Below, in pieces: positions 5,712 to 32,698 of a stretch of 36,081 nt of DNA. The translations under genes were made by a program, and so were the position numbers. A model generated the notes under the pieces. It worked only from the letters and a program-made list of their open reading frames with translations, was not told where the DNA came from and ran no database searches. Source of the stretch: Oscillospiraceae bacterium (GTDB taxonomy: Bacteria > Bacillota > Clostridia > Oscillospirales > Ruminococcaceae). Location: positions 1 to 36,081 of the forward strand of contig JAFQLH010000068.1 in assembly GCA_017396665.1 (NCBI GenBank), given 5' to 3'. Position 1 is the first letter of the stretch; each line of letters starts with the position of its first letter.

Positions 5712-5781
5712 GAATTTCCTTCGGTAAATCCGAAGCCCGTCAATACACAGTGCGGTTAATAGCAAACTATTGGGACGGGCT
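5712..5781 (+). repeat. R1 composite hairpin element, copy 1
   Basis: A degenerate first hairpin (5712-5730) is followed by AGCCCGTC (5734-5741) pairing with GACGGGCT (5774-5781) around a 32-base loop that contains GGTTAATAGCAAACTA. The same architecture and loop motif recur at 28056, 30730, 30862 and 32316 with different but still complementary stems. Confidence 0.7.
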
Positions 5782-5857
5782 ACCGACCGTGCCGACAGAC
5801 TATCTTTCGTTTCTCAAAAAGTAGAGGGAGGCACAATCGCCCGTGGCGGCTCGCCAC
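5782..5857 (-). repeat. R3 composite hairpin element, copy a
   Basis: On the minus strand: hairpin GTGGCG-AGC-CGCCAC (5843-5857), then GTGCC (5830-5834) followed by TCC, pairing with GGCAC (5789-5793), then GGTCGG. It matches the plus-strand copies at 27572, 30587 and 32263 in layout and in the conserved TCC and GTCGGCAC blocks. Confidence 0.65.
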
Positions 5858-5883
5858 AAAAAAGCCCCCAGAAACGGGGGCTT
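5858..5883 (-). terminator. Terminator of the darA-holB-ricT operon
   Basis: On the minus strand AAGCCCCC pairs with GGGGGCTT around a 6-base loop and continues into TTTTT. It lies about 100 bases after the stop of the phospholipase-like gene, beyond the R2 repeat. Confidence 0.8.
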
Positions 5884-5902
5884 ATTTATGTGCGAAAGTC
5901 GG

Positions 5903-5976
5903 CAGAATTGCGACAGCAATTCTGAGCACCTGCCACACAAACTATGAGTTGTAGCTTAGTTTAGGGCAGGTGTGCC
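5903..5976 (+). repeat. R2 composite hairpin element, copy 1
   Basis: CAGAATTGC-GACA-GCAATTCTG (5903-5924) is followed by CACCTGCC (5927-5934) pairing with GGCAGGTG (5965-5972) around a 30-base loop, then TGCC. Two more copies lie at 27774 and 27927. Next to it, the palindrome CCTGATATCAGG contains the stop codon of the adjacent minus-strand gene. Confidence 0.8.
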
Positions 5977-5984
5977 CCCTGATA

Positions 5985-6605
5985 TCAGGAGGCTTTAATA
6001 TTTACATTTTCATTTATATATCCGAGAGTTGCCATGGCGGTGATGATGACGGTGTCCTCTGTGAGCACCCTTGGTCTGTCCTGCGACAGCTTGTCTTCAT
6101 AATCCTCGCAGACATAGTCACGAAAGCCCCTCATCATTTCCTTGTCGATATTGCGGTAATCAAGAGCCCCTGCACCCTTGAGCGTGTCAAGCACCTCAGA
6201 GTACCAATCCTTGCTTGTGATAAGCGTATTGAAGCGGTAAAGCTCCTGCCACTTCTTGTCCTTGAGGACCTCGTATCCGTCGCCCTCTTGTCCGAGCTTT
6301 GAAAGCATATCGGGCTGGATAAGCTCGTCCCAGAAAATATCCGTCAGAATATGCACCAAAACGCCCTTGGCGAAATCCTCGTCCCTGCCCTTTGTGTCCT
6401 CATAGACGCTGAGGGCTTTTTTCTTCCACTCATCGAGGTCGAGGCTTCTGTTGTGGGCCTCATAACGCACCTCCTGCGGTGCAAACCCCTCAAGGTTTAC
6501 GCTGTCGGGCGCAATCGAGCCGAGCAGATACTGAGCTGTATCGTTCACCTTCAAATCGTCGGCAATAAGCCTTGCAACATACAGATGCACAGGTGACGAC
6601 GGCAT
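5985..6605 (-). CDS. Zinc-dependent phospholipase C-like protein
   Basis: A 206-residue protein with the layout of the zinc-dependent phospholipase C family (PF00882-like). N-terminal MPSSPVHLYVA carries the expected His7; GSIAPD supplies Asp34; EAHNRS supplies His51; and VHILTDIFWDE supplies His85 and Asp89, all likely metal ligands in an all-helical fold. There is no signal peptide, so unlike secreted bacterial phospholipases C it probably acts in the cytoplasm, and the substrate is unknown. The ATG overlaps the ricT stop as TAATG, so it is coupled to ricT and is the last gene of the operon. Its stop sits in the palindrome CCTGATATCAGG. The family is likely; enzymatic activity is inferred only from metal ligands. 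Confidence 0.75.
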   Translation of the reverse strand: MPSSPVHLYVARLIADDLKVNDTAQYLLGSIAPDSVNLEGFAPQEVRYEAHNRSLDLDEWKKKALSVYEDTKGRDEDFAKGVLVHILTDIFWDELIQPDMLSKLGQEGDGYEVLKDKKWQELYRFNTLITSKDWYSEVLDTLKGAGALDYRNIDKEMMRGFRDYVCEDYEDKLSQDRPRVLTEDTVIITAMATLGYINENVNIKAS

Positions 6606-7468
6606 TATTCAAGCTCCTTGAGAGCACGGAGCTCGTCCTTGTTGACTCTGATAACCGAGTCCTTTATAACCTCTACGTCGCTTTTGTGAACTGTCACAAC
6701 TGCGTCGCTTTCAAGCTTTACTCTGAGCTTTCCTGTAAGCAGGTTTGTATCCTCAACAACGCCCTTTCCGTCGGCTGTTCTGACAATAGCGCCGACCTTC
6801 GGAGTTGTCTTGAGAAGCTCTGTGTAAGCGTCCTGCTCGTACTTTAAACAGCACATAAGTCTTCCGCAGGCGCCCGAAATCTTTGTCGGGTTGAGCGACA
6901 AGCCCTGCTCCTTCGCCATCTTTATAGACACCGGCTGGAACTCGCCTAAGAATCTTGAGCAGCAGTACGGCTGACCGCACACACCAAGACCGCCGAGCAT
7001 CTTAGCCTCATCTCTGACGCCGATTTGTCTAAGCTCGATTCTTGTTCTGAACACAGAAGCCAAATCCTTTACAAGCTCTCTGAAATCGACTCTGTTTTCT
7101 GCTGTGAAGTAAAACAGCAGCTTGTTATTATCAAAGGTGCACTCAACATCGACAAGGTTCATGCTAAGCCCGTGCTTTAAAATTTTCTCCTCGCAGATTT
7201 TAAATGCTTCCTTTTCCTTCTCCTTGTTCTTCTCAACAGTTTTAAGGTCCTGGGCTGTTGCGATTCTTATAATCGACTTGAGCGGAGCTACAACCTCGCT
7301 GTCCTCGATGCTCTTGACACCGAGTGCGACCTCTCCGCACTCAACACCTCTTGCAGTTTCAACTATAACATAGTCCCCTGCGTTGACCTTTTTTCCTGCC
7401 GGAGAAAAGTGATATATCTTTCCAACGCTCTTGAAGCGTACTCCGATAACCTCGGTCAAGCTGTTCAC
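6605..7468 (-). CDS. ricT: RicT (YaaT), PSP1-domain iron-sulfur regulatory protein
   Basis: A 287-residue PSP1-domain protein. In Bacillus, RicT with RicA and RicF forms a complex that carries iron-sulfur clusters and promotes RNase Y-dependent mRNA maturation, competence, sporulation and biofilm formation. The cysteine clusters are plain: GVCGQPYCCSRF (Cys164, 169, 170) and GACGRLMCCLKY (Cys201, 206, 207). The start is GTG at 7466-7468, 7 bases after the holB stop, with GAAAGGAA upstream. The order darA-holB-ricT matches the Bacillus yaaQ-holB-yaaT string. Partners RicA and RicF are not in the window. Confidence 0.93.
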   Translation of the reverse strand: MNSLTEVIGVRFKSVGKIYHFSPAGKKVNAGDYVIVETARGVECGEVALGVKSIEDSEVVAPLKSIIRIATAQDLKTVEKNKEKEKEAFKICEEKILKHGLSMNLVDVECTFDNNKLLFYFTAENRVDFRELVKDLASVFRTRIELRQIGVRDEAKMLGGLGVCGQPYCCSRFLGEFQPVSIKMAKEQGLSLNPTKISGACGRLMCCLKYEQDAYTELLKTTPKVGAIVRTADGKGVVEDTNLLTGKLRVKLESDAVVTVHKSDVEVIKDSVIRVNKDELRALKELE

Positions 7469-7475
7469 ATTCCTT

Positions 7476-8468
7476 TCAGATACAAAGCCTTATGTCCGCA
7501 CACACTGCGTTAAGGCATAATGTAAGATTAGAGTTGCCGTTTACTGCGGCAATATATTTTTCACAGATTTCGCAAAGTGCCGTCAGCTTTCTTTCGCTGA
7601 AAGCGGCACCCAGCCTTCTTGAGTTTTCCTCGCTGCAGCCTATGAGTCTTTCGCCAACGCCCATTCTTATCATAGCCGCATCTCTTAAAACCTGCATAAG
7701 AAGCCCTAAAACTGTAACACAAAGCTCCCTGTTTCCGTCACACTTCCACATAGCTCTGAGCATATCGTACTCGTTTTTCTGCTCAATCGCCTGTGCCATC
7801 AAAGTCGTGACCTCGACCGCCTTTTTAAGCGGCTTGCTTTCAAAGAACTCTATACATCTTCCGATGTTTCCGCCCATAGCCTTTACAGCGTCGCAGATTT
7901 CCTGCTCGCTCTTGTCGGTTGTCTCCTTTAGGTAAGCTATTGCCTGCTCACCTGTGACACTTTTCATAGACAGCGCTGTTACTCTTGACAACACAGTCGG
8001 CAGGAAATACTCCCTTGCCGATGCGGTAAGGATAATAACTGCGTGTGCGGGCGGTTCTTCAATGAGCTTTAATAGTGCATTCTGAGAGCCCTGCGGAGTT
8101 TTGTCCATATCCGCAATCAGATACACCTTCACTCTGCCCTCGCTCGGGGCAATATATGCGTCAGACACTACCCTTCTCAAATCCTCATCGAGCTTATAGC
8201 CTCCGCTTTTGAGGGAAGGGACAACCTTTATAAAGTCGGGGTGTCCGCCGCCTGTAAGCATTCTGCAGGCGTGACAGCCGTTGCAGGGGGGATTGTCCCC
8301 TGTACACAGAAGTCTTTGTGCGATATACGAGGCGAGCTTTTTCTTGCCCAGCCCCTTTTCGCCATAGATGACAATGCTCTGCGGAATTCTCCCGTCACTT
8401 GTCATCGACCTGACCGCCTGTAACGTGTCTTCGTTGCCTATGATTTCAAGGCTTTTATTTTGTAACAC
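7476..8468 (-). CDS. holB: DNA polymerase III delta-prime subunit
   Basis: A 330-residue clamp-loader subunit, AAA+ fold. Residues 36-45 (GEKGLGKKKL) form the modified P-loop typical of delta-prime; CTGDNPPCNGCHACRM gives the four zinc-finger cysteines (55, 62, 65, 68); NALLKLIEEPP and LPTVLSRV are the conserved delta-prime/tau blocks, with the SRC motif changed to SRV. It loads the beta clamp together with delta and tau. The start is probably GTG at 8466-8468, 2 bases after the darA stop, with only a weak AAGG upstream, consistent with coupling to darA translation. Confidence 0.93.
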   Translation of the reverse strand: MLQNKSLEIIGNEDTLQAVRSMTSDGRIPQSIVIYGEKGLGKKKLASYIAQRLLCTGDNPPCNGCHACRMLTGGGHPDFIKVVPSLKSGGYKLDEDLRRVVSDAYIAPSEGRVKVYLIADMDKTPQGSQNALLKLIEEPPAHAVIILTASAREYFLPTVLSRVTALSMKSVTGEQAIAYLKETTDKSEQEICDAVKAMGGNIGRCIEFFESKPLKKAVEVTTLMAQAIEQKNEYDMLRAMWKCDGNRELCVTVLGLLMQVLRDAAMIRMGVGERLIGCSEENSRRLGAAFSERKLTALCEICEKYIAAVNGNSNLTLCLNAVCADIRLCI

Positions 8469-8470
8469 CC

Positions 8471-8794
8471 TTATACTCTTTCAAAGCGTTCGAGGTTTGT
8501 GATAAAGATTGTAGCTCCGCCGACAGAAACCTCAACAGGACCGTTGTCATAGAGCGGAGTGCCGAGAGTCATTTCAGTCGGAACAATCTGCTTTCTCTGT
8601 CTTGAGTGCTTTCTTATAACCTCGATAATATCATCAACCCTGTCATCCTCGCAGGCAATCATAAAGGTTGTGCTTCCTGCTGAGAGAAAGCCGCCTGTTG
8701 AGGAGAGCTTTGTAGCACGGAAGCCCGCTTTTGTGATAGCTGAGGAAACAGCGTGGTTATCGTCCTTATTTACAACTGCAAACATAAGCTTCAT
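8471..8794 (-). CDS. darA: Cyclic-di-AMP-binding PII-like protein DarA (PstA)
   Basis: A 107-residue PII-like protein. DarA trimers bind cyclic di-AMP, a second messenger for potassium and envelope homeostasis; the downstream partner is unknown in most species. The sequence MKLMFAVVNKDD, AGFRATKLSSTGGFL, TTFMIACEDD and the C-terminal PVEVSVGGATIFI match the YaaQ family closely; TKLSSTGGFL lies at the nucleotide-binding surface. It is first in the operon darA-holB-ricT-PLC and has a 17-bp-spaced promoter at 8840-8868. ATG at 8792-8794 has AAGGAAAG upstream. No diadenylate cyclase gene is in the window. Confidence 0.95.
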   Translation of the reverse strand: MKLMFAVVNKDDNHAVSSAITKAGFRATKLSSTGGFLSAGSTTFMIACEDDRVDDIIEVIRKHSRQRKQIVPTEMTLGTPLYDNGPVEVSVGGATIFITNLERFERV

Positions 8795-8839
8795 AGTAAC
8801 ACTTTCCTTTCTTACATCTGAAAATATGGTTTCTCAACA

Positions 8840-8868
8840 ATTGTACCACATTTACATACAAAAATCAA
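8840..8868 (-). promoter_or_regulatory. Promoter of the darA operon
   Basis: Minus strand TTGATT (8863-8868), 17-base spacer, TACAAT (8840-8845), in the 87-base gap between the lexA stop and darA. Confidence 0.75.
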
Positions 8869-8881
8869 TCACCGCACAAAA

Positions 8882-9472
8882 TCAGTCGAAGTGGCGGATA
8901 AGCCCCACGACCTTGCCGAGAATCGAGACCTCGTTACATATAATCGGCGCCATTGTATCGTTTTCCGGCTGGAGTCTGAAGTGGCCTCTTTCCTTGTAGA
9001 ATCTTTTCACGGTTGCGTTTTCGCCGTCAACGAGAGCGACAACTATCTCGCCGTTTTCGGCATACTGTCTTTGCTCTGCGACAACTATATCACCGTCTAA
9101 AATTGCGGCATTTATCATACTGTCGCCTCTTACCTTAAGGGCAAAGAGAGGGTTCTGGAAACGCTTTTCAGACTTAAAGCTTATGTAGTCTGTTACCTCC
9201 TCGAAGGCGGTAATAGGCACACCTGCTGTAACAGTACCGACGAGCGGAACCGTCACTGCGCCTGACGCACGGGCAAGCTTTATCGCTCTGTTTCTTCCCT
9301 CGCTCTTTTCGAGGTAGCCGTTTTCGGTTAGTGAATTTATACAGCGGAAGGCGGTTGAGGTTGACTTAAAGCCGAGCTGGGCACATATTTCCCTGACTGT
9401 CGGGGCATAGCCCTCGTCGATTCTCGTTTTGATATACTCGTACACCTGTCTGTCCTTTTCGGAAATTGCCAT
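8882..9472 (-). CDS. lexA: LexA SOS repressor
   Basis: A 196-residue LexA. Residues 1-65 form the winged-helix DNA-binding domain (DRQVYEYIKTRIDEGYAPT, then STSTAFRCINSL as recognition helix). Residues 74-196 form the S24 protease domain, with self-cleavage site Ala83-Gly84 in VTAGVP, catalytic Ser118 in RGDSM and Lys156 in ATVKRF. Activated RecA triggers cleavage and derepresses DNA-repair genes. ATG at 9470-9472 lies 3 bases after the murC stop and uses GGAGGGA at the murC end, so the two genes form an operon and share the promoter near 10958. A candidate LexA box (10937-10950) sits at that promoter, which would give autoregulation through murC. Confidence 0.96.
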   Translation of the reverse strand: MAISEKDRQVYEYIKTRIDEGYAPTVREICAQLGFKSTSTAFRCINSLTENGYLEKSEGRNRAIKLARASGAVTVPLVGTVTAGVPITAFEEVTDYISFKSEKRFQNPLFALKVRGDSMINAAILDGDIVVAEQRQYAENGEIVVALVDGENATVKRFYKERGHFRLQPENDTMAPIICNEVSILGKVVGLIRHFD

Positions 9473-9475
9473 AAC

Positions 9476-10912
9476 TTATCCCTCCGTTTCGTGTAGTTTC
9501 TTTCCAAGCTTTTTCGCAAGCTTATATGCATCGCCGCAGCCGAGCGTAATAACGAGGTCGCCCTCACAAAGCTCGCCTGAGAGATACTCTATAATCTCGT
9601 CAAAGTTTTCTTCCTTTCTTTTTGCTGTCTGCATATCGACAAGCTCATCGGGTGCATCAAAGAAGATACAGCCTTCGATTTTCTCAGCGAGCTGTCTTGT
9701 ATAGATGCCGTTTGTGTTCTTCTCGCGGCTTCCCATAATGTCTGTTAAAACGACCTTATCTGCAATTTTGAGCACTCTTGCGAAGTCGTCCATCAGTATC
9801 TGCGTTCTTGAATAGGTGAACGGCTGGAACACCGCCCACACACGGTTGAAGTCGAGCGACTTTGCGGCGGTAAGGACAGCTTCAAGCTCTGTGGGGTGGT
9901 GTGCGTAGTCATCGACAATTGTAACACCCTTTTCGTAAGCCATTTTTTCAAAGCGTCTTCCCGCACCTGTAAACTTTGAGAGTGCGTCCTTCATAACATT
10001 TGCTGAGATACCCGACAGCGAGGCAGCCGCAATTGAAGCTACGGCATTGAGCACGTTATGCTTTCCGGGAACAAAAAGCTCAAACTCCCCGAAAAGCTCT
10101 CCGCTGTGGTACACGTTGAAGCTTGTTCTCAGTCCCTTTGCGGAGATAATCTCTGCATAATAGTCATTGGCTTTATCAAAGCCGAAGGTTATCTTCTTTT
10201 TATTGACGTCTGCGACAGAATCGAGAGTGTTCCTGTCGTCGCCGTTTATGATAAGGCAGTTGCTTGCAAGTGAAGCGAAGCTGCCGAAGGATTTCTTGAT
10301 ATTGTCGAGTGTGCCAAAGTAGTCGAGGTGGTCTGCATCGACATTAAGGATAACGACTACGTCGGGGTGGAGCTTTAAGTAGTGGTCTTCAAACTCGCAG
10401 GACTCACATATGAAGGTTTCGCTGCTTCCTGCTCTGCCGCTTCCGCCGCCGATTGCTTTGAGCTTTCCGCCGATAACGCAGGAGATGTCCTCCTCAGCTT
10501 CGACAAAAATCTGTGTGAGCATCGAGGTTGCAGTAGTTTTTCCGTGCGTTCCGCAGACGCACACGGCGTTTTCATACCACGAGGAAACAAGCCCCAGCAG
10601 GTCGCTTCTTTCCATAAGCGGAACACCGCTTTCCTTTGCGGCGATAAGCTCGGGGTTGTCTGACATAATAGCCGAGGTATAGACGATAAGCTCAGCTCCT
10701 TCTATATTCTCCGCCCTTTGTCCCATATATACCTTGCAACCCATTTTACGGACTGCGTCGAGAGTTTCGGTTTCGTTGTTGTCAGAGCCTGAAAGCTCAT
10801 ACCCCTTTGAGCAGAGTATCTGAGCCAGCGGATACATTCCCGAACCGCCTATTCCGATAAAATGGACTCTCTTTATTCCATCAAGCACGCTGTTGTTAAG
10901 GTTTTGAGTCAT
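9476..10912 (-). CDS. murC: UDP-N-acetylmuramate--L-alanine ligase
   Basis: A 478-residue Mur ligase of normal length. It adds L-Ala to UDP-MurNAc with ATP, the first peptide step of cytoplasmic peptidoglycan precursor synthesis. The N-terminal UDP-binding glycine loop GIGGSGM is at residues 20-26, the ATP loop GTHGKTT at 121-127, NVDADHLDYFG in the central domain, and DDYAHHPTE plus VFQPFTYSR in the C-terminal domain, all MurC signatures. ATG at 10910-10912 has GGGAGC upstream. It is transcribed with lexA, which starts 3 bases after its stop, an unusual pairing that could tie wall synthesis to the SOS response. It diverges from spoVG. Confidence 0.97.
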   Translation of the reverse strand: MTQNLNNSVLDGIKRVHFIGIGGSGMYPLAQILCSKGYELSGSDNNETETLDAVRKMGCKVYMGQRAENIEGAELIVYTSAIMSDNPELIAAKESGVPLMERSDLLGLVSSWYENAVCVCGTHGKTTATSMLTQIFVEAEEDISCVIGGKLKAIGGGSGRAGSSETFICESCEFEDHYLKLHPDVVVILNVDADHLDYFGTLDNIKKSFGSFASLASNCLIINGDDRNTLDSVADVNKKKITFGFDKANDYYAEIISAKGLRTSFNVYHSGELFGEFELFVPGKHNVLNAVASIAAASLSGISANVMKDALSKFTGAGRRFEKMAYEKGVTIVDDYAHHPTELEAVLTAAKSLDFNRVWAVFQPFTYSRTQILMDDFARVLKIADKVVLTDIMGSREKNTNGIYTRQLAEKIEGCIFFDAPDELVDMQTAKRKEENFDEIIEYLSGELCEGDLVITLGCGDAYKLAKKLGKKLHETEG

Positions 10913-14699: not shown

Positions 14700-14727
14700 C
14701 CCCACTCACAAGCTTTATACTTTTTAT

Positions 14728-14934
14728 CGGGGGAAACCTTTCTGAAGAAAGTTTATCCCCCGGACCCCCTTACAAAGACTTTTAATATGATTTCAGCCCC
14801 ATAGGGTGTACATCACGAAACAGAGAATTTAAAATCAGTTCTCTCTTGGTGCATACCCTATGGGGCTGAAATTTATAATAAAAGTTTTAGGAAAGGAGTT
14901 TGAGGAACAACCCTTTTTCAAAAGGGTTTTCCTC
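14728..14934. repeat. Convergent hairpin repeats around a long 18-bp palindrome
   Basis: Between two convergent genes lie three structures. A near-perfect 15-bp hairpin with CGGGGGA/TCCCCCG ends is at 14728-14762, followed by ACCCCCTTACAAAGACTTTTAA. A perfect 18-bp inverted repeat has arms at 14790-14807 and 14855-14872, enclosing AGAGAA/TTCTCT. A second 15-bp hairpin is at 14902-14934 with GAGGAA/TTCCTC ends, preceded in mirror orientation by an AAAGTTTTAGGAAAGGAG block. The two outer hairpins with their tails look like the same dispersed element facing inward. They probably terminate both convergent transcripts. Confidence 0.65.
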
Positions 14935-14963
14935 AATAGAAGCACAAAGTTTATGGGCGGGGG

Positions 14964-17066
14964 TTATTTTGTGTTAGCTGTTACGGTTGCAGAGTAGCCG
15001 CCGTAGTAGGCTTTACTGCCGAGGGTTCTGTATGCTCTTACTCTGAACTTGTAGGTTGTAGCGGACTTGAGTGAGGTAACAGAATACTTGAGTGTGTCAG
15101 GGCTTGTGACCTTTGCAACTCTTACCCACTGTCCGTTCTTGTACTGCTCTACGATATAACCGCTTGCGCCTGTTACCTTGTTCCAAGCAAGTCTTACCGA
15201 TGACTTTGATGTTGCATCGACCTTTGCTGTGACCTTTGCAGGATTTGTAGAGGTTGTGACAGTTGAGCTCCACGCTCCGTAGTAAGCCTTACCGCCGAGC
15301 ATTTTGTATGCCTGTACTCTGAACTTATAGGTTGTGCCTGACTTTAAAGAAGCAACAGAATACTTGAGTGTGTCAGGGCTTGTAACCTTAGCTACTCTTA
15401 CCCACTGTCCGTTCTTGTACTGCTGGATGATGTAGCCGCTAGCTCCTGTTACCTTGTTCCAGGCAAGTCTTACAGATGAGCCTGAAACAGCGTCTTCCTT
15501 GGCTGTGACCTTTGCAGGCTTTGTGCAGGCTGTTACAGTATCTGCAAAGTCGCTGTAGTAGAGCTTTCCGTCTACAGTTGCGTATGACCTTATTCTGAAC
15601 TTGTACTCAGTACCTGCCTTGAGGGAAGGAACTGAATACTTGAGTGTTGAGTTGCTTGTGAACTTCTTTATTCTTACCCATGTACCGTTCTTGTACTGCT
15701 CTAAGATATATCCGTCTGCATCGGCTACCTTGCTCCATACAAGTCTTATCGAGCTGCCTGAGTTTGCTTCCATTTTGAAGGTGGCAGGATTTACGATAAG
15801 CGAGTACTCCTTGAAATAATCGTGTGCATACTGATGGGCAGACGAGCCCTTTGTGCAGTATATTGTCAGATTATAGCTTGTCTCAAACAGGTCGTCCTTG
15901 ATAGCCGTTGTAGGTGAAAGGAAGGTCACTCCCTTAAGAGAGTCCATTCCTGTGAAGGCATACATTCCGACGCTTGTCACAGTTGAAGGAACAATAATCT
16001 TTTCAAGCGTCTCGCAGTTCATAAAAGCACAGGCATCTATAGTCCTGAGTCCCTCGGAGAGCCTTATTTCAGAAAGCTCATAGCAGTCAGAAAATGCCCT
16101 TTCTCCGATAGACTTAACACTGCCCGGAAGCTCGATTGTTTCAAGTGTTTCGCAAAACGCAAAGCACCTGTAACCGATAACCTCAACACCGTCTGCGATA
16201 GTTACCTTCTTGAGACTTTCGTTACCGTTGAAGGTTCCTCTGTTAAGTGTCTTGAGTGTTGAAGGAATGTTTACTGAGGTAAGCTTTCTGCAACAGTCGA
16301 AAGCGTACTCACCGAGCGAGGTTATTCCCTCGGACATTGTTACAGAGGTAAGCTCATCGCAGCCGCTGAACGCATTATCGCCTATTGTTCTTATGCTTGA
16401 AGGAAATTTAAGCGTCTTGAGTGAAAGGCAGTCGTAGAATGCGTATTCTTCAATTGTTTTCAAGCCGCTGCCGAACCCCACAGAGCTGAGCCTGTTGCAG
16501 TGATAAAACGCCATATCTCCTATGGTCACAACACTATTCGGAATGGTGATGCTTTCAAGCTTCTCACAGCCGTAAAACGCCCCACCGCCTATGCTTTTTA
16601 CACCCGACGGAATGTTTACGTCCGCAAGAATCCAGCAGCAGGAGAAAAGCTCCTCGCTGATTGCACCAAGGTTCTTCGGAAGCTTTGCAGAAGTAAGCAC
16701 CATACAGCTACTGAACGCTCCCTTTCCGATGGTTGTCACGCTGTCAGGGACAGATATGCTCTCAAGACTTGTGCAGAAATAGAACGCGTAGTCGCCGATT
16801 TCCTTTAAACCGCTCGGGAGCTTGACCGACTTCATTCCAACGCATTCGTAAAATGCATAGTTGCCGATTTTAGTTACCGCCTTTCCGCCTATCTTCGCAG
16901 GGACAGTAACATTCTCAGCACCGCCGTTGTAATCTGTGATAAGTACTGTGTTGTCGCTGAGCACCTCATAGGTAAAACCTCCGTACTCCGCTGCTGACGC
17001 TACCGTACATCCCAGCACGAAAAACACCGACAGCGCAAACAGTATTGATACCAGCTTCTTTTTCAT
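14964..17066 (-). CDS. Secreted BspA-type leucine-rich-repeat protein with three fibronectin type III domains
   Basis: A 700-residue secreted protein. A signal peptide (KKK, hydrophobic stretch, ASA-A near residue 26) is followed by about 15 BspA/LRR_5 repeats of roughly 23 residues (pattern IGxxAFxxCxxLxxVxIPxxVxxI) to about residue 415, then three fibronectin type III modules at about 425-515, 516-608 and 609-700, each with GYILEQYKNGxWVRI/V and TYKFRVRAY. No sortase motif or C-terminal membrane anchor is present, so retention at the cell surface is uncertain. Such proteins in gut bacteria serve adhesion or ligand binding. The last two FN3 modules are nearly identical, suggesting recent duplication. 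A consensus promoter lies at 17120-17147; ATG is preceded by GAGAGGAAG. The adjacent minus-strand surface gene has its own terminator. Confidence 0.9.
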   Translation of the reverse strand: MKKKLVSILFALSVFFVLGCTVASAAEYGGFTYEVLSDNTVLITDYNGGAENVTVPAKIGGKAVTKIGNYAFYECVGMKSVKLPSGLKEIGDYAFYFCTSLESISVPDSVTTIGKGAFSSCMVLTSAKLPKNLGAISEELFSCCWILADVNIPSGVKSIGGGAFYGCEKLESITIPNSVVTIGDMAFYHCNRLSSVGFGSGLKTIEEYAFYDCLSLKTLKFPSSIRTIGDNAFSGCDELTSVTMSEGITSLGEYAFDCCRKLTSVNIPSTLKTLNRGTFNGNESLKKVTIADGVEVIGYRCFAFCETLETIELPGSVKSIGERAFSDCYELSEIRLSEGLRTIDACAFMNCETLEKIIVPSTVTSVGMYAFTGMDSLKGVTFLSPTTAIKDDLFETSYNLTIYCTKGSSAHQYAHDYFKEYSLIVNPATFKMEANSGSSIRLVWSKVADADGYILEQYKNGTWVRIKKFTSNSTLKYSVPSLKAGTEYKFRIRSYATVDGKLYYSDFADTVTACTKPAKVTAKEDAVSGSSVRLAWNKVTGASGYIIQQYKNGQWVRVAKVTSPDTLKYSVASLKSGTTYKFRVQAYKMLGGKAYYGAWSSTVTTSTNPAKVTAKVDATSKSSVRLAWNKVTGASGYIVEQYKNGQWVRVAKVTSPDTLKYSVTSLKSATTYKFRVRAYRTLGSKAYYGGYSATVTANTK

Positions 17067-17262: not shown

Positions 17263-18636
17263 TTACTTTCTCTTCTTTGTTGCTACCATAGCAACTGCTG
17301 CAAGAGCGATACCTGCAAATGCAAGTCCTGCTTCTGCGCCTGTCTGAACGTTGTCGTCAGTCGGCTCGTCAACAGGCTCATCTGTTGGTTCGTCTGTTGG
17401 CTCGTCTGTTGGTTCGTCTGTTGGTTCGTCTTCAGGCTCTTCCTCAGCAGGCTTTGCCTCGCACTCTGTGAGGATGTAGCTTTCAAATTCTTCAGCCCAG
17501 CTATACTCGGAAACAAGCTCTCCATCGCCGTTTACAGTAAAGCTGCCGGTTGCACTGAAAGCGTAGCCAACGTTTGGATAAAGGATTGCACGGAAGGAGT
17601 ACTGCTTGCCTTCTTCAAACACTTCGTTGCCTTCCATAACTCTGATGTCTTCAAGTTCCTCGTCATAAACGCCCCAGTCGAGTGAACCGATTGAGTAGTT
17701 TGCACCCTCAGGAAGCTTTACGCTTGCGAGATTTTCTTCAACAGTTTCGCCGATTGTTGGCTCAGCGTAGCCTTCAACGCCGATTTCTGTGATTAAAACA
17801 TACTCAGGAACCTCGTATACAAAGCCTACGAATGCCTCTCCGCTTGAATATACATTTGAATCCTCATAAACATAATCTGTTGAGCCGTTTACTGTAATTT
17901 CAGCGTTAGCGTCAAAAACATATCCGAACTTAGGTGTAACCATCACCTGGAAGCCGTAAATCTTGCCCGCTTCAAATACTGTGTCAGGCGAAAGCGAGTC
18001 TCCGACTGATGCGTAGCTTTCGTCAAGCTCAAAGCAGGTAGGGTTGTCAACGTCGCCTGTATCCATAAGCTCATAGTTTGCGCCCTCAGGAAGCTTCAGG
18101 TCGTCAAGAATCTCTCCCAATGTCTGTCCTGCAACAGGCAGGTCAAAGCCCTCTACATCAATTTCAGTAATAGTTGTCAGTGTCATTTCCTTTGCCTCTG
18201 TGTTCACGAGTGAAACGCAGGCACTGTCAGCGTCAACACGGCAATAAAAGTCTTCAACAAGAGTGTCCTCTCCGTTGATTGTCAAAACTGCGTCATCAGC
18301 AAACTCATATCCCTCATTCGGAATTACGTAAAAGTCTGCGGCATAGATTACGCCCTCTTCAAAGGTTTCGTCTTCGAAATCGTAATAATCGTCCTCATCC
18401 TCTACATAGATATACCAGTTTACATAGTCAATGCTGTAATTTGCTCCCTCAGGAACCTTGATTTGAGCTGTCTGCTGAGCCTCCGTCACACCTACATAAG
18501 GTATAACCTCGCCTATTACGTCAACTGCGTCAATGACAATGTTTTCGCCTTCAGCAAACGCTGTAATCGATAACATTGAAGCTGAAACAAAAAGAGCTGT
18601 CAGAGCAGCAGTGATTCGTGTCTTGTTGATTCTCAT
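17263..18636 (-). CDS. Cell-wall-anchored acidic surface protein with three repeat units
   Basis: A 457-residue, strongly acidic secreted protein. The signal peptide ends near AFAEG (residue 29). Three diverged repeats each carry a xPxxGxT(xE) lead and a (L/I)K(L/V)PEGANY block (KVPEGANYS, KLPEGANYE, KLPEGANYS), with intervening GYEFADDAVLTINGE, GYVFDANAEITVNGS and GYAFSATGSFTVNGD units. A spacer of EPTD repeats (about 404-427) leads to NVQTG (429-433), a hydrophobic helix and terminal KKRK. This is the layout of a sortase signal with NVQTG in place of LPXTG. The function is unknown; adhesion or matrix display is inferred. A promoter lies at 18705-18733; ATG follows AAAGGGAGTTG. Confidence 0.8.
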   Translation of the reverse strand: MRINKTRITAALTALFVSASMLSITAFAEGENIVIDAVDVIGEVIPYVGVTEAQQTAQIKVPEGANYSIDYVNWYIYVEDEDDYYDFEDETFEEGVIYAADFYVIPNEGYEFADDAVLTINGEDTLVEDFYCRVDADSACVSLVNTEAKEMTLTTITEIDVEGFDLPVAGQTLGEILDDLKLPEGANYELMDTGDVDNPTCFELDESYASVGDSLSPDTVFEAGKIYGFQVMVTPKFGYVFDANAEITVNGSTDYVYEDSNVYSSGEAFVGFVYEVPEYVLITEIGVEGYAEPTIGETVEENLASVKLPEGANYSIGSLDWGVYDEELEDIRVMEGNEVFEEGKQYSFRAILYPNVGYAFSATGSFTVNGDGELVSEYSWAEEFESYILTECEAKPAEEEPEDEPTDEPTDEPTDEPTDEPVDEPTDDNVQTGAEAGLAFAGIALAAVAMVATKKRK

Positions 18637-26791: not shown

Positions 26792-27571
26792 CTTAGCTGT
26801 GAGTTTGCACCTTATGTTTCGTCGGATGACGGCGACAAGAGCAGACGTATTACCGCCGTTACGACAGACATCACAGAGCTTGTTGAACAGACAAGAAGGC
26901 TTGACGCTATTATCAACTCGCTCCCGGGCGGCGTTGCGAACTACAGAGTTTCAGGTGACAAGGTTACTTCTGAATTTTTCAGCAAGGCAATCCCTGAGCT
27001 GTGGGGCTACGGTGACGATATAGAGGGGTACAAAAAGCTTGTTTCAAGCGACGTAATGAAGCTTGTCTTCGAGAGAGATTTCCCGAGAGTTTATGCGGCT
27101 ATGAAATATCTTGTCACGACGGGCGAGGACATAAGGCTCAGCTTCCGTGTAAACTGCAAGGTAGGTTACCGCTGGGTAACTATGGCGGCAAGCAAGATTT
27201 CCGACCACGCCGACGGCTCGGTATCTATAAGCTGTCTTTACACAATTTCGTCAGACAGAGAGCTTATGTACAGACGTATGCTTGACGATGCTTCTATCGG
27301 AATTTACGTTTGTGACGCACAGACAAAGAACACTCTCTATATGAACAACACTCTCAGAAAACAGCTCGGTGTTGACAGCGAGACCGACGTTACTGAGGTC
27401 AACTGCTACAGTATTCTCAGCGACGGCGACGAGAGCTTCTCTGATTCATATCAGTACGACAGCTATCAGACAAGAATCATTGACGGCGAAGGCGGGTACT
27501 TCTTCATCCGTGGCAGACGCATCGGCTGGAACGGTATCCCTGCTATCATTGAATACATCTCCGACCGCTAA
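26792..27571 (+). pseudogene. Continuation of the PAS sensor gene after the in-frame stop
   Basis: In the same frame as the upstream gene, 259 sense codons follow the TGA. The first 30 residues (LSCEFAPYV, then RRITAVTTDITE) complete the PAS domain cut at the stop; then come a full PAS module (NSLPGGVANYRV, GYRWVTMAASKISD) and a final PAS-like module (DDASIGIYVCDAQTKNTLYMNN). No internal ATG or GTG has a ribosome-binding site, so it is unlikely to be made on its own. Restoring TGG at the stop gives EKWLSCEFAPY, which fits the Trp often found there in PAS domains, so a single G-to-A change is the simplest cause. The alternative is read-through; TGA followed by CTT is a somewhat leaky context. 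Confidence 0.75.
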
Positions 27572-27662
27572 CAAGCGAGACGCTTGACCCGTTTGCAGCT
27601 CCGATAGGTAACTACGGACATAAAGATAGTTTGTCGCTGCGGTCGGACAAAGCAAAAGTCGG
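27572..27662 (+). repeat. R3 composite hairpin element, copy b
   Basis: CAAGCG-AGA-CGCTTG (27572-27586), then GCAGC (27595-27599) followed by TCC, a 36-base loop, and GCTGC (27636-27640), then GGTCGGACAAAGC and AAAAGTCGG. Bases 27595-27662 match the reverse complement of 32706-32773 with about two differences in 68. Confidence 0.85.
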
Positions 27663-27680
27663 TAGAATAATATAATAATT

Positions 27681-27773: not shown

Positions 27774-27846
27774 AGAATTGCGACAGCAATTCTGTGCACC
27801 TGCTATACAGATTTTGAGTTATGGCTTAGTTTAGGGCAGGTGTGCC
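27774..27846 (+). repeat. R2 composite hairpin element, copy 2
   Basis: AGAATTGC-GACA-GCAATTCT (27774-27793), then CACCTGCT (27797-27804) pairing with GGCAGGTG (27835-27842), the last pair a T-G wobble, around a loop that keeps GAGTTATGGCTTAGTTTA as in copy 1. A short-stem R1-like block (27847-27882) follows. Confidence 0.8.
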
Positions 27847-27926
27847 AGTCCAAACAAAGTAAAGTTAATAACAAACCTTCGGAGAAACCGCACGCAATCT
27901 GGGATTTCCGCCAAAGCGAAAGTCAG

Positions 27927-28000
27927 CAGAATTGCGACAGCGGTTCTGTGCACCTGCCACACAAATTTTGATTTCTATCACATTATAGGGCAGGTGTGCC
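27927..28000 (+). repeat. R2 composite hairpin element, copy 3
   Basis: CAGAATTGC-GACA-GCGGTTCTG (27927-27948): the right arm changed at two positions, but both remain T-G pairs. CACCTGCC (27951-27958) pairs with GGCAGGTG (27989-27996) around a diverged 30-base loop. Confidence 0.8.
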
Positions 28001-28055: not shown

Positions 28056-28126
28056 GGATTTTTCGAAGAAAAATCCGAAGCCAGCCCAAATAAAGTAACG
28101 TTAATAACAAACCTTCGGGGCTGGCT
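28056..28126 (+). repeat. R1 composite hairpin element, copy 2
   Basis: GGATTTTTC-GAA-GAAAAATCC (28056-28076), then AGCCAGCCC (28079-28087) pairing with GGGCTGGCT (28118-28126) around a 30-base loop containing GTTAATAACAAAC. Compared with copies 4 and 5 (GGATTTACC-GAA-GGTAAATCC), the first stem changed on both arms together. Confidence 0.85.
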
Positions 28127-28159: not shown

Positions 28160-28168
28160 TGTTATAAT
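28160..28168 (+). promoter_or_regulatory. Extended -10 promoter of the YfhO gene
   Basis: TG-T-TATAAT (28160-28168) in a T-rich stretch. No good -35 box is visible, as is common for extended -10 promoters. Confidence 0.55.
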
Positions 28169-28214
28169 AAAGGTTGAGCAAAATTTCAACCACACTTATG
28201 CACGGAGGCGCACA

Positions 28215-30602
28215 ATGACAAGACCTATCACCTCACTTCAGAAGCCTAAGGAGAAATACCTTTTTGTATTCTTAGCTTCGTTTATAATGCTTGCGATAAT
28301 CTTTATACCTATCCTCATATACAACAAGGGCTACCTGCTGTACTACGGCGACTTCAACTCCCAGCAGCTCATGTTCTACGAACACGCCCACGACTTCATC
28401 AGAGAAAACGGCGTCGGCTGGGACTGGGGCACAGACCTTGGCTCTGACATACTGAGCACCTACTCGTTCTACCTTTTCGGAAGCCCGTTCTTCTGGCTTA
28501 CCATTCCGTTCCCTTCGTCAGCGGTTGTGTACCTTATCCCGTGGCTTCTCTGCCTCAAGACGGCTGTTGCGGCGGTGACAAGCTACGCATTTATAAGACG
28601 TTTTGTAAAGACTCCTAACGCTGCGGCTATCGGCGCACTTCTGTACGCATTTTCAGGCGCACAGATTTACAACGTATTTTTCAATCACTTCCACGACGTA
28701 ACCGCATTCTTCCCGCTGCTGCTCCTTGCCCTTGAAATGAGGGTGAACGACAACAGGAAGGGCGTTTTCGCACTCGCTGTCGCACTTATGGCGATTGTGA
28801 ACTACTACTTCTTTGCTTCTGTCGTCGTGTTCACGATACTCTATTTCTTCATAAGATGCACAGACAAGAGCTTCACTATAACAATAAGAAAATTTGTCTG
28901 CCTCGCAATCGAAGCTATAATAGGTGTTCTCATATCGGCGGTTGTTTTCCTTCCGTCAGCAATTTCTGTTTTTGCAAATCCAAGACTTTCAGAGACACTT
29001 TCGGGAATAGATATGGTCGTTTACTCAGACCAGAACAGACTGTACAGAATTATTCAGAGCCTGTTTATGCTCCCCGATATGCCTGCAAGGTCAAACCTCT
29101 TCAACTCCGACTCGGCAAGATGGGCGTCCATCGCCGCTTATCTGCCGATGTTCTCAATGGCTGGCGTTATCGCCTTCTTCAGAGGCAAGGAAAAGCACTG
29201 GGCAAAGAAGCTCTCGCTTATCTGCCTTATCGCCGCACTTGTGCCGATTCTCAACAGCGCCTTCCAGCTTTTCAACGGAAGCTACTACGCAAGATGGTTC
29301 TTTATGCCTGTGCTGATAATGGCACTTATGACTGCATACTCGATTGACGACAAGGAGATTTCTCTCAAGAAGGGCGTCGTGCCGACTGCGGTTGTGCTTT
29401 CGATATTCGCTCTCATCTTCCTGCTCCCCGAAACAGACTCGAAGACAGGCGATATCACAATAGGCAAGGTTGCAGAGTATCCCGACCTCGCTGTAATTCA
29501 GCTTGTCGGTACAATCGTACTGTTTGTAATGCTCGTGTTTGCGGTATACTTTATAAAGAACAAGGACACAAGACTCAGAAGACTTCTGCCTATGACAGTT
29601 GCGGCTGTGTTTGTTTCAAGTGCCGCAATGCTCTGGTACGGAATCGCTCAGGGACCTTATCAGGACTACTACATCGACCACGCTATCAAGGGCGAAATAA
29701 ACCTGCCGAAGCAGGAGGGCGAGTTTTACAGAATCGACACCAGCCCGAATGTTGACAACTGGTGTATGTTCTGGGGCTATTCTTCAATGAGATGCTTCCA
29801 GAGTACTGTTTCACCTTCTATTATGACCTTCTATCAGGACACTATGGGCATTACAAGAAACGTTGCTACAAGAGCCGAGACAACCTACTACAGCTTGAGG
29901 CAGATGCTTTCGGTCAAGTATTACCTAAAGCAGATTGAAGACGACGACAAGCCTGACGATTTTGTAATGGAGGGCTTTGAATACATCGACACACAGAACG
30001 ATTTCTACATCTACGAAAATCAGTATTATATCCCGATGGGCTTTGTTTACGACAAGTATGTAAACATTGACGACGTTTTAAAGCTCACAACAAGCCAGAA
30101 GACCTCTCTGGCAATGAGGGCAATTTTCCTTACAGACCGTCAGATTGAGGAGTACGGCGATATTATTGAGGACTTCGGTACAAGCTATTCTTCACCAAGA
30201 GCCGACGTTCTCGAATCTGCTGAGCAGAAGATGAAGACAGCCTGCTACTACTTCAAGGAGAGTCCCGACGGCTTTGAGGCAAAGGCAAAGCTTGAAAAGG
30301 AAAGCCTCATGTTCTTCTCTGTTCCTTACGACGAGGGCTTCACCGCCTACGTTAACGGAAAGAGGACAAAGATTGAAAATGTGTTTGACGGACTTTGTGC
30401 TATAAGAGTTCCTGCAGGCGAGAGCGAGATTGTTTTTGAGTATGAAACAGTAGGTCTCAAGTCGGGACTTATCATCACAATCGCAGGACTCATGATGTTC
30501 TTTATCTATATGGTTGTTGTACGCAATGAGTCAAAAAAGCCAAGCCCTCTCCCTTCTTCAAAGGGCGAAGAGGAGGACGATTCCAGCAAGCCACACGCTT
30601 GA
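28215..30602 (+). CDS. YfhO family polytopic membrane protein (GT-C fold)
   Basis: About 795 residues. YfhO-type proteins have a GT-C glycosyltransferase fold; in Bacillus, YfhO is linked to adding GlcNAc to lipoteichoic acid. Features: first membrane helix at about 17-38, then the YfhO signature YYGDFNSQQLMFYEHAHDF with GWDWGTDLGSD, about 11-12 helices up to residue 480, a large extracytoplasmic region (about 485-755) ending with YDEGFTAYVNGK and VPAGESEIVFEYE, and a last helix near 755-775. I choose ATG at 28215 behind CACGGAGGCG; an upstream reading would run through repeat sequence. The last residues (SSKPHA and stop) are encoded by repeat R3c, so the C-terminus seems to have been extended or replaced by the repeat. 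No CsbB-type partner is in the window. Confidence 0.88.
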   Translation: MTRPITSLQKPKEKYLFVFLASFIMLAIIFIPILIYNKGYLLYYGDFNSQQLMFYEHAHDFIRENGVGWDWGTDLGSDILSTYSFYLFGSPFFWLTIPFPSSAVVYLIPWLLCLKTAVAAVTSYAFIRRFVKTPNAAAIGALLYAFSGAQIYNVFFNHFHDVTAFFPLLLLALEMRVNDNRKGVFALAVALMAIVNYYFFASVVVFTILYFFIRCTDKSFTITIRKFVCLAIEAIIGVLISAVVFLPSAISVFANPRLSETLSGIDMVVYSDQNRLYRIIQSLFMLPDMPARSNLFNSDSARWASIAAYLPMFSMAGVIAFFRGKEKHWAKKLSLICLIAALVPILNSAFQLFNGSYYARWFFMPVLIMALMTAYSIDDKEISLKKGVVPTAVVLSIFALIFLLPETDSKTGDITIGKVAEYPDLAVIQLVGTIVLFVMLVFAVYFIKNKDTRLRRLLPMTVAAVFVSSAAMLWYGIAQGPYQDYYIDHAIKGEINLPKQEGEFYRIDTSPNVDNWCMFWGYSSMRCFQSTVSPSIMTFYQDTMGITRNVATRAETTYYSLRQMLSVKYYLKQIEDDDKPDDFVMEGFEYIDTQNDFYIYENQYYIPMGFVYDKYVNIDDVLKLTTSQKTSLAMRAIFLTDRQIEEYGDIIEDFGTSYSSPRADVLESAEQKMKTACYYFKESPDGFEAKAKLEKESLMFFSVPYDEGFTAYVNGKRTKIENVFDGLCAIRVPAGESEIVFEYETVGLKSGLIITIAGLMMFFIYMVVVRNESKKPSPLPSSKGEEEDDSSKPHA

Positions 30603-30675
30603 CCGTTTTGTGCCTCCGACTACTTTCTGCGGAAAGCAGGTTTGTCTGTCGGCACAGTCGGACAAAGCAAAAGTC
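30587..30675 (+). repeat. R3 composite hairpin element, copy c, overlapping the yfhO stop
   Basis: CAAGC-CACAC-GCTTG (30587-30601), then TGTGCC (30609-30614) with TCC, pairing with GGCACA (30651-30656), then GTCGGACAAAGC and AAAAGTC. The yfhO stop codon TGA (30600-30602) lies at the end of the first hairpin. Confidence 0.8.
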
Positions 30676-30729
30676 TGGGACTTCCGAAGAAAATCCCCTA
30701 AATCTTTACGTTCTTCTGTCTTGATACAG

Positions 30730-30798
30730 AGCCCGTTCGATAGGTTTGTGAGAACTCTTATTTATACTGAACGGGCTTAGGATTTCCTGCGGAAATCC
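30730..30798 (-). repeat. R1 composite hairpin element, copy 3
   Basis: On the minus strand GGATTTCC-GCA-GGAAATCC (30780-30798), TA, then AGCCCGTTC (30769-30777) pairing with GAACGGGCT (30730-30738) around a 30-base loop ending in ACAAACCTATC. The stem differs from all other copies yet is fully complementary. Confidence 0.75.
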
Positions 30799-30861
30799 GC
30801 AAAATAGTAGTGGAAATTCTACCAAGAAATCAAGAGCTTCGGAGAAACCGCACAAAGTTCG

Positions 30862-30931
30862 GGATTTACCGAAGGTAAATCCAAAGCCAGCCAAAACAAA
30901 CTTTAGGTTATAGCAAACTATGTGGCTGGCT
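30862..30931 (+). repeat. R1 composite hairpin element, copy 4
   Basis: GGATTTACC-GAA-GGTAAATCC (30862-30882), then AGCCAGCC (30885-30892) pairing with GGCTGGCT (30924-30931). It differs from copy 5 (32316-32385) at only three of 70 bases. The rest of the yfhO-pth gap (30932-31064) holds GGGT-GT-ACCC and the pth ribosome-binding site; no other gene. Confidence 0.88.
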
Positions 30932-31064
30932 AAGCATCGGGGTGTACCCTTTTGCATATCATTCAGATAATAACTATGGGTCACATCGGTCGGACGACAA
31001 GCTCCGATACGATGTTGGCCCGTGTTGTCGTTTCAAAAATAACACTTACAAAGGAGAAAAAACT

Positions 31065-31700
31065 ATGAGCATCTTTGACAAGCTCCGTGAGCTTTCAGAA
31101 AAAAACGGCGGCGGAAACGCTCCGCACGGCAAGGTCGAATACATCATCGCAGGGCTTGGAAACCCGGGCGTAACATACGAGGACACAAGGCACAACGCAG
31201 GCTTTATCTGTGTTGACAAGCTTTGCGAAACGCTCTGCGTGAAGTGCGACAGGGCAAAGTTCAGGTCGATGTATGCCGACGTTATGATTGAGGGGAAGCG
31301 TTGCCTTGTCCTCAAGCCTACAACATATATGAACAACAGCGGAGAGGCAATCTCGGAAGCTATGGACTTTTACAAAATCCCACCTCAGAGGCTCATTGTC
31401 ATATATGACGACATATCGCTTGAGCCTTCAAAAATGCGTATAAGACGCAAGGGCTCGCACGGCGGACACAACGGTATAAAAAGCATCGTGGAGCTTTGCG
31501 ACAGCCAGGACTTCCCACGAATCAAGATAGGTGTCGGAAAGAAGCCTCACCCCGATTACAACCTCGCTGACTGGGTGCTCTCCCGCTTTACAGATGACGA
31601 GCGAAAGCTCATTGACGAGTGTGCACAAAAGGCGGCAGAGGCGGTAAAGCTCATTGTCAGCGGAAAGACCGACGAAGCTATGAACAGGTTCAACAGCTAA
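31065..31700 (+). CDS. pth: Peptidyl-tRNA hydrolase
   Basis: 211 residues; Pth frees tRNA from peptidyl-tRNA dropped by ribosomes. After a polar N-terminal extension of about 22 residues, unusual for the family, come GLGNPG (Asn33), TRHNAGF with catalytic His43, KPTTYMNNSGEA, IVIYDDISLE with the conserved Asp, and GSHGGHNGIKSI. ATG at 31065 has AAAGGAGAAAA upstream; a longer reading from 30942 runs through spacer sequence. It is followed after 19 bases by the NUDIX gene and later by mfd, in line with the pth-mfd neighbourhood of many Firmicutes. Confidence 0.95.
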   Translation: MSIFDKLRELSEKNGGGNAPHGKVEYIIAGLGNPGVTYEDTRHNAGFICVDKLCETLCVKCDRAKFRSMYADVMIEGKRCLVLKPTTYMNNSGEAISEAMDFYKIPPQRLIVIYDDISLEPSKMRIRRKGSHGGHNGIKSIVELCDSQDFPRIKIGVGKKPHPDYNLADWVLSRFTDDERKLIDECAQKAAEAVKLIVSGKTDEAMNRFNS

Positions 31701-31719
31701 ATTTACGGAGGGAAAAGTT

Positions 31720-32256
31720 ATGAATCTTACTGAAAAGACAATAGGTACAGAAAAAATCTTCGAGGGAAAAATCCTCTCGGTCACAAGAGATACAGTAGAG
31801 CTCCCTAACGGCTCAACAGCCTTCAGAGAGGTCGTTCACCACTCAGGCGGTGTGTGCGTTGTTCCGCTTACCGATGAGGGCGAAATCATTATGGTAAAGC
31901 AGTTTCGGTACCCCTTCTCACAGGTGCTTTTAGAAGTGCCGGCAGGAAAGAGGGAAAAGGGCGAGGACCCGCTTGTTTGCGGTACAAGAGAGCTTAAAGA
32001 GGAGTGCGGTGCGGTCGCAGAGAAGATTATCCCTCTCGGAAAGCTCTACCCTACCGTTGCCTATGACACGGAAATCATCTATATGTTCCTCGCAACAGGG
32101 CTCTCTTTCGGTGAGCAGAAGCTCGACGAGGACGAGTTTTTGGATGTTGTAAGAATTCCGCTTGAGGACGCTGTGAAGATGGTTATGAACGATGAAATCC
32201 CCGACTCCAAAACCCAGCTCGCTATTCTCAAGACATATAATCTGCTCAAGGGCTAG
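31720..32256 (+). CDS. NUDIX hydrolase, ADP-ribose pyrophosphatase type
   Basis: 178 residues. The NUDIX box fits exactly: Gly76, Glu82, then REL-K-EE-C-GA at 90-98, supplying the Mg2+ ligands that position water for cleaving nucleoside-diphosphate-X bonds. The N-terminal strand part (GKILSVTRDTVELPNGS, FREVVHHSGGVCVVPL) and QFRYPFSQVLLEVPAGK match the ADP-ribose pyrophosphatase (NudF-like) branch. It probably recycles ADP-ribose or similar. ATG at 31720 has ACGGAGGG upstream, so it is likely cotranscribed with pth. It ends with TAG just before repeat R3d. Confidence 0.92.
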   Translation: MNLTEKTIGTEKIFEGKILSVTRDTVELPNGSTAFREVVHHSGGVCVVPLTDEGEIIMVKQFRYPFSQVLLEVPAGKREKGEDPLVCGTRELKEECGAVAEKIIPLGKLYPTVAYDTEIIYMFLATGLSFGEQKLDEDEFLDVVRIPLEDAVKMVMNDEIPDSKTQLAILKTYNLLKG

Positions 32257-32262
32257 AATCAG

Positions 32263-32405
32263 CAAGCCACACGCTTGACCGTTTTGTGCCTCGGATAAAG
32301 AAATTCAAACTTGGGGGATTTACCGAAGGTAAATCCGAAGCCAGCCGAAACAAACTTTAGGTTATAACAAACTATGTGGCTGGCTACGGCACAGTCGGAC
32401 AAAGC
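32263..32405 (+). repeat. R3 element, copy d, with an R1 element nested in its loop
   Basis: CAAGC-CACAC-GCTTG (32263-32277) and TGTGCC (32285-32290) pair outward with GGCACA (32388-32393), followed by GTCGGACAAAGC as in other R3 copies. In place of the usual loop of about 36 bases lies R1 copy 5 (32316-32385) flanked by short unrelated sequence. Confidence 0.8.
32316..32385 (+). repeat. R1 composite hairpin element, copy 5 (nested)
   Basis: GGATTTACC-GAA-GGTAAATCC (32316-32336), then AGCCAGCC (32339-32346) pairing with GGCTGGCT (32378-32385). It is 67/70 identical to copy 4. It sits inside the loop of R3 copy d. Confidence 0.88.
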
Positions 32406-32696: not shown

Positions 32697-32698
32697 AA

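Follow-up and report, generated by a model that had tools for sequence, protein, structure and literature searches.

The stretch of DNA analysed here (the window) is the entire contig C50 (JAFQLH010000068.1; 36,081 nucleotides) of the draft genome of an uncultured gut bacterium of the Oscillospiraceae, which is referred to as G000 (1.83 Mb, 82 contigs, 86.8% complete). It carries copies of a repeat, R1, whose unit is about 70 bases long and consists of a short, mostly perfect hairpin (8-10 bp, 3-4 nt loop), followed by 2 nt and a stem of 8-9 bp around a loop of 29-32 nt. The gene order in the right part of the window (28239-36081) is YfhO - mosaic - pth - NUDIX - mosaic - mfd. The host belongs near Ruminococcus, as its YfhO protein has its best named relatives in Ruminococcus sp. 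Phil15 and RGIG8564 (76% identity). R1 is also present in the genome of a related species, G004, which is 96% complete; L-numbers designate loci or stretches. Copies were identified with a covariance model built on 12 copies and with a geometry scan (first stem of at least 7 bp with a loop of 3-5 nt, gap of 0-4 nt, second stem of at least 7 bp with a loop of 26-34 nt). The window contains the following copies:

5711..5781, plus strand: copy 1, with the outer stem AGCCCGTC/GACGGGCT around a loop of 32 nt; its first hairpin is imperfect and has the loop TTC, which is GAA inverted; 59.0 bits.
28056..28126, plus strand: copy 2, GGATTTTTC-GAA-GAAAAATCC, GA, AGCCAGCCC/GGGCTGGCT, loop 30 nt; 71.9 bits, also found by the geometry scan.
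30730..30798, minus strand: copy 3, GGATTTCC-GCA-GGAAATCC, TA, AGCCCGTTC/GAACGGGCT, loop 30 nt; 52.3 bits, also found by the geometry scan.
30862..30931, plus strand: copy 4, GGATTTACC-GAA-GGTAAATCC, AA, AGCCAGCC/GGCTGGCT; 70.9 bits, also found by the geometry scan.
32316..32385, plus strand: copy 5, the same as copy 4; 71.1 bits, also found by the geometry scan.
5903..5974, plus strand: copy of the CACCTGC class, CAGAATTGC-GACA-GCAATTCTG, AG, CACCTGCC/GGCAGGTG; covariance model (34.9 bits) and geometry scan.
27774..27846, plus strand: copy of the CACCTGC class, AGAATTGC-GACA-GCAATTCT, GTG, CACCTGC/GCAGGTG, loop 32 nt; found by the geometry scan and by a BLAST match to 5890-5982, but absent from the matches of the covariance model.
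27927..27998, plus strand: copy of the CACCTGC class, CAGAATTGC-GACA-GCGGTTCTG with two T-G pairs, TG, CACCTGCC/GGCAGGTG; covariance model (32.1 bits), absent from the geometry scan because of its wobble pairs.
27851..27882, plus strand: loop fragment without the right arm; covariance model (22.7 bits, E 0.0043).

A preliminary description of this DNA had listed copies 1 to 5; when excised, folded and aligned, all five were found in place and with the plan it had given. The number was too low, as three more copies of the same plan and the loop fragment are present. Its statement that the first hairpins pair exactly is true of four copies, whereas in copy 1 (AGAATTTCC-TTC-GGTAAATCC) three of nine positions are mispaired. 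The described gap of about 2 nt is the usual one, with 3 nt in two of 19 geometry matches, and the loop range of 30-32 nt widens to 29-32 nt. By eye, copy 5 is enclosed by another module, GTGCC ... GGCAC. A mini-hairpin within the large loop (GTTATAAC, CGACAGTCG, TGATTGTCA and similar; by eye) was considered, but its register is inconsistent and it is not claimed.

Further copies in related genomes, which the preliminary description had proposed to look for, exist but are confined to few genomes. Among ten genomes of the genus, the covariance model gave 22 matches in G000, the weakest of which (G000:C61:36182, E 0.009) is doubtful, three in G004 and none in the eight others. In a family sample of 197 genomes, which was searched with stricter filters, matches were found in the own genome only, 196 genomes had none, and G004 is not among the matches listed. 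With copy 5 as the query, BLAST gave 13 matches in G000, and of 40 relatives one had a single match. The R1 model had no match at E 1 in 80 loci that surround relatives of the YfhO gene and thus sample the neighbourhood of one gene. At least eight outer stems occur: AGCCAGCC, AGCCCGTC, AGCCCGTTC, AGCCTGCC, AGCCTGCG, AGTCCGCC, GCCCACCC and CACCTGCC. The model matches also take in the stems AGCCTGCC, AGCCTGCG, AGTCCGCC and GCCCACCC and the CACCTGC/GCAGGTG class, which is only partly out of sample, as the training rows L006 and L008 have a similar first hairpin.

The geometry scan of 238,910 bases (the window and 14 stretches) gave 20 matches, 19 of which are R1 and one is unrelated and AT-rich; this density is not a genome average, because the stretches were picked for holding copies. 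Five shuffles gave 1, 0, 0, 0 and 0 matches, and all three matches in the 80 loci of relatives (857,030 bases) are unrelated. Contamination of the bin is unlikely for contigs C50, C61, C42, C5 and C27, since the genus-typical repeat R2 is also present there. In line with the statement of the preliminary description that no named family fits, Rfam has no match to R1, neither in the window at the gathering cut-off nor in seven further loci at E 0.5, which gave one tRNA and five matches under their cut-offs. The sole Rfam match in the window lies elsewhere and is an S10-Clostridia ribosomal protein leader (RF03136, 2735-2813, minus strand, 41.5 bits). The exact loop-and-stem pattern, which covers the AGCCAGCC class only, was found zero times in genome_contigs and zero times in viral_contigs, from which the genome of the window and its close kin are possibly excluded, and the mosaic stretches matched nothing among plasmids and phages. 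Among the open-licence papers listed in literature searches, no title or opening of an abstract describes such repeats for Ruminococcus or its relatives. R1 is a real, apparently undescribed and narrowly distributed double-hairpin repeat.

In most of 24 copies, the 3' outside sequences are unlike right from the edge of the stem, and the unit therefore probably ends at the stem. A longer 3' flank, ACGGCACAGTCGGACAAAGC, is common to three of the 24, and two copies in L041, which are 264 bp apart, share an identical stretch of 99 bp. The 5' foot of the first hairpin reads TCGG in seven of the 24 copies and, displaced by one or two bases, in four more. The same first hairpin can precede different outer stems: CAGAATT(G/A)C stands ahead of the AGCCAGCC stem (L041:177) and of the CACCTGC stem (L041:53, window 5903), and GGATTT first hairpins stand ahead of AGCCAGCC, AGCCCGTC and AGCCCGTTC stems, which indicates that first and second hairpins are shuffled independently.

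The paired stem changes with partly conserved loop bases that the preliminary description had pointed out were statistically confirmed in alignments of 12 copies and of 27 matches. In the 12 copies, 95.2% of 209 cells are paired and 12 of the 18 pairs are double-changed; the covariation score is 0.439, compared to 0.159 for shuffled alignments, none of which reached it in 500 trials, and no more than 0.094 for slid ones. In the 27 matches (26 distinct, from 15 sources; L063 was included and L054, and thus G000:C61:36182, left out), 95.3% of 422 cells are paired and 14 of 18 pairs are double-changed, with 92 cells changed on both sides versus 10 changed on one side; the score of 0.521 (0.148 shuffled, at most 0.081 slid) stems from mutually related copies in an alignment that was fitted to the structure and is biased to it. 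Bases of the large loop are partly conserved, e.g., CAAAC toward the 3' side in many copies.

The preliminary description had concluded from the paired changes that the structure is under selection. This conclusion is not warranted here: G-U pairs are rare, some small loops are inverted and the arms carry symmetric indels. Template switching can yield the same marks, and covariation alone is therefore no proof of an RNA. According to two studies, arm homogenisation and spacer inversion are outcomes of template switching (Abraham and Hazkani-Covo, PMC8604942), and template switching can account for multibase compensatory changes (Monttinen and Loytynoja, PMC8794818). After removal of five of the 27 rows (two fragments, three chimeras), of duplicates and of the two outermost pairs, 326 inner cells comprise 318 Watson-Crick pairs, three T-G, no A-C and five other mismatches, whereas seven tRNAs from the same stretches, an unmatched control, have 15 G-U among 151 pairs (Fisher test with 325 R1 cells, P 6e-6). 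The small loops of 24 copies are GAA (nine), its inverse TTC (two), GCA (three), its inverse TGC (one), GACA (five) and four others found once each. One-base indels are symmetric in the two arms (GGATTTACC/GGTAAATCC versus GGATTTCC/GGAAATCC), and a mixed form with one arm of each type, GGATTTCC-GAA-GGTAAATCC, is present at L042:7859. A reversed large loop was not seen in the 20 geometry matches (16 forward, 4 unclassed), so that something may read the large loop. The conserved loop bases and the lack of a reversed loop also disfavor a purely mutational origin.

The two carrier genomes differ in the presence of R1. At G000:C42/G004:C55, 87 nt in G004 stand in place of AGCC (4 nt) in G000, between flanks that are 86 and 99% identical. 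The 87 nt comprise the end of a short CAAGC hairpin, the first hairpin and the AGCCAGCC hairpin, and no target duplication is visible at this one pair of occupied and empty site. At G000:C5/G004:C30 (L050/L052), a AGCCTGCC copy is found in both genomes. Its second hairpin is fully identical and the two substitutions both lie in the small loop; the 5' flanks are unlike, and the 3' flanks diverge after about 23 nt of similarity. Near 39.8 kb in G000:C61/G004:C55 (the L049 site), the sequence of G000 is longer by about 390 bp, all of it mosaic by eye; G004 has a plain terminator-like hairpin there.

R1 copies are intergenic. Codon-scored gene calls leave one overlap in 29 entries, and the frame concerned had been given too early a start; raw reading frames of at least 70 amino acids overlap about 10 of 28 matches. 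Other hairpin modules (E, F and G) surround the copies and form mosaics with them, in which the order of the modules, by reading, varies. Examples in the window are:

30584..30675, plus strand: module E, hairpin CAAGC-CACAC-GCTTG, GTGCC/GGCAC around 36 nt, then AGTCGGACAAAGC.
5783..5842, minus strand: module E, abutting copy 1 in the opposite orientation.
27571..27660, plus strand: module F, hairpin CAAGCGAGACGCTTG, then GCAGC/GCTGC.
32693..32802, minus strand: module F, matching 27566-27675 in inverted orientation (89%).
5299..5373, plus strand: module G, hairpin CCAGCCCATGCGCTGG, then GTGACCCCCC ... GCCCCCCTGTAGGGGGGC.

The idea that all modules follow the R1 plan was dropped: only about five of 12 folded modules have a short-then-larger hairpin as minimum-energy structure. 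Between L048 and L049, the tip of a hairpin differs and its foot (GAAGCCA ... TGGCGATT) is preserved on both sides (by eye).

Other repeats accompany R1. Within the NUDIX-mfd mosaic, a string of perfect hairpins (32520-32704; by eye) has many copies in G001, G002, G003, G005, G008 and G009, and no second G000 copy is among the matches listed. An unrelated repeat of about 215 bp with three hairpins (14714-14940) has at least 63 BLAST matches in G000 and at least 80 in G004 (both strands, pieces counted); among the matches listed, partial ones occur in six more of the ten genus genomes. Tandem repeats lie within open reading frames at 15001-15815 (three copies at 276-nt spacing) and 17354-17449 (a 12-nt array), and 3'-end pieces of tRNA-Leu are repeated in the spacer next to the AGCCTGCG copy in L047 (16780-17100). 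In the window, the 36 nt after YfhO and the 36 nt after NUDIX are 97% alike.

R1 is probably a lineage-specific, non-coding, interspersed DNA module, similar to BIMEs or BOX elements, with a directed loop and with arms that are kept exact by template switching. This interpretation builds on the observed plan, the covariation, the intergenic placing, the reshuffling of hairpins, the near-private distribution and the presence/absence in two species. The units would spread and recombine as DNA, chiefly into regions that are already built of hairpins. Template switching in a strand that folds during replication, with one arm serving as the template for the other, may keep the arms exact. The large loop, whose direction is fixed relative to the first hairpin, would be the part recognised by a putative factor, and copies downstream of genes could have a secondary role at the 3' end of the transcript.

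A number of observations weigh against a DNA module of this kind. A mover was not found, in a search that covered only the Y1 family. The 87 nt may have been lost from G000 rather than gained by G004. Small loops in the inverse form are few (three of 24), and those of the sole orthologous pair, L050/L052, are GTA and TTC, which is no inversion. The identical second hairpin of this pair could mean selection, for which it is only moderate evidence because the flanking genes are about 90% identical. The G-U rate was compared to an unmatched control, and a low rate is equally expected for terminator-like RNA hairpins that are held very stable. Furthermore, 14 of 15 copies between same-strand genes are oriented with those genes, a count that is based on approximate gene calls with several copies per region and with an L049 site that is probably convergent; this apparent bias would suit a role as RNA.

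The main rival is a structured RNA, either a 3'-end or intercistronic element or a small RNA, both hairpins of which are selected and whose loop binds protein or RNA; it is considered unlikely. The strong covariation together with the conserved loop bases, the orientation and the second hairpin shared by two species would be accounted for, and the few wobbles (three T-G, no A-C) favor folding of this strand. However, G-U pairs are far rarer than in the tRNAs, double-changed cells greatly outnumber those changed on one side, part of the small loops is inverted, and eight of the ten genus genomes and 196 of the 197 in the family sample lack a match. In addition, the orientation of the copies at window 30730, in L045 and in L053 disagrees with that of the nearest called gene, and copy 2 is possibly untranscribed, since by eye it is preceded by a terminator-like hairpin that follows the upstream gene, and a TATAAT stands between it and the next gene. 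The GC skews of the stretches were too weak for an analysis of replication-strand bias.

There is little probability that R1 is palindromic debris without function or mover, which was duplicated with its surroundings and is palindromic only through template switching. The longer flanks common to some copies (ACGGCACAGTCGGACAAAGC and the 99-bp identity in L041) would be expected of such debris, but the loop bases are partly conserved in one direction while stems, first hairpins and flanks vary, and the same plan recurs at many unrelated intergenic sites.

The preliminary description had also proposed to look for a REP-type (Y1) transposase. Among the ten genus genomes, the family has one match, a fragment at the end of G000 contig C67; it is a piece of an IS200/IS605-type transposase and is under the NCBIfam cut-off, probably because it is cut short. 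The nine other draft genomes have no Y1 match, including G004 with its three copies, and a transposase of this type is not the obvious agent. A GTAG or CGTC tag was absent within 8 nt of the 5' foot in all 24 copies. Although the REP-like size of the first hairpin, the modular, intergenic and mosaic arrangement and the fragment in G000 would fit a REP or REPIN moved by a RAYT or IS200-like Y1 transposase on single-stranded DNA, this is very improbable given the missing tag, the nine genomes without a match and a loop of 29-32 nt, which exceeds the 2-20 nt (GTAG) and 4-5 nt (CGTC) stated for REP loops in a published account (PMC3733652). Y1 transposases do not account for R1; single-stranded DNA as the substrate of a transposase, which the preliminary description had suggested as an option, may still apply.

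It can be speculated, at long odds, that the large hairpin is a new type of single-strand DNA site, the loop of which is read, while the stem sequence is free, by a putative recombinase of the lineage that both disperses the modules and rearranges nearby genes. If true, this would fit the order of pth and NUDIX in the window: in relatives, NUDIX adjoins YfhO in eight of eight loci and pth follows NUDIX in all seven loci that reach it (the eighth ends earlier), and R1 mosaics are located at two of the three new gene joints of the window. Should the directed loop serve as a recognition site, relatives of Ruminococcus would have a new hairpin-moving agent that is still to be found. R1 would be a compact natural case in which covariation caused by selection on RNA structure could be told apart from that caused by template switching of DNA. 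Such repeats could mislead tools that take covariation for proof that an RNA is functional, since the stems change at many bases with few G-U steps.

R1 resembles several known systems in part. Like Rfam families, it has helices that covary beyond chance, but no family was above the gathering cut-off. A MITE is not a suitable model, as no target site duplication is seen (87 nt for 4 nt, one site) and, by eye, the ends of the 24 copies are not mutual inverted repeats. With BIMEs, REPs and REPINs, which the same account describes as short intergenic hairpins in composite mosaics, including families whose stem residues differ but remain complementary (PMC3733652), R1 has in common the short small-loop hairpin (8-10 bp, 3-4 nt), the intergenic position and the occurrence in several copies. 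A classification as REP/RAYT was not adopted, since both tag and transposase were looked for and neither was borne out: the GTAG/CGTC tag is missing, G004 has no Y1 match, and the second hairpin has a large loop. BOX elements of the Gram-positive bacteria Streptococcus pneumoniae and S. suis are described as modular intergenic repeats with varied combinations of modules and predicted folds (PMC3049150). R1 likewise has distinct hairpin modules that are recombined in varying orders; each of its modules is one hairpin with a variable stem, a target duplication is lacking at one site, and the likeness is one of description rather than sequence. Finally, R1 shares homogenised arms and inverted short spacers, including a GAA/TTC spacer case in yeast (PMC8604942), as well as multi-base compensatory changes (PMC8794818), with the quasipalindromes treated in the template-switching studies. 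Such hairpins, however, are mutational events at single sites, whereas the copies of R1 form a family that is dispersed and shares a directed loop.

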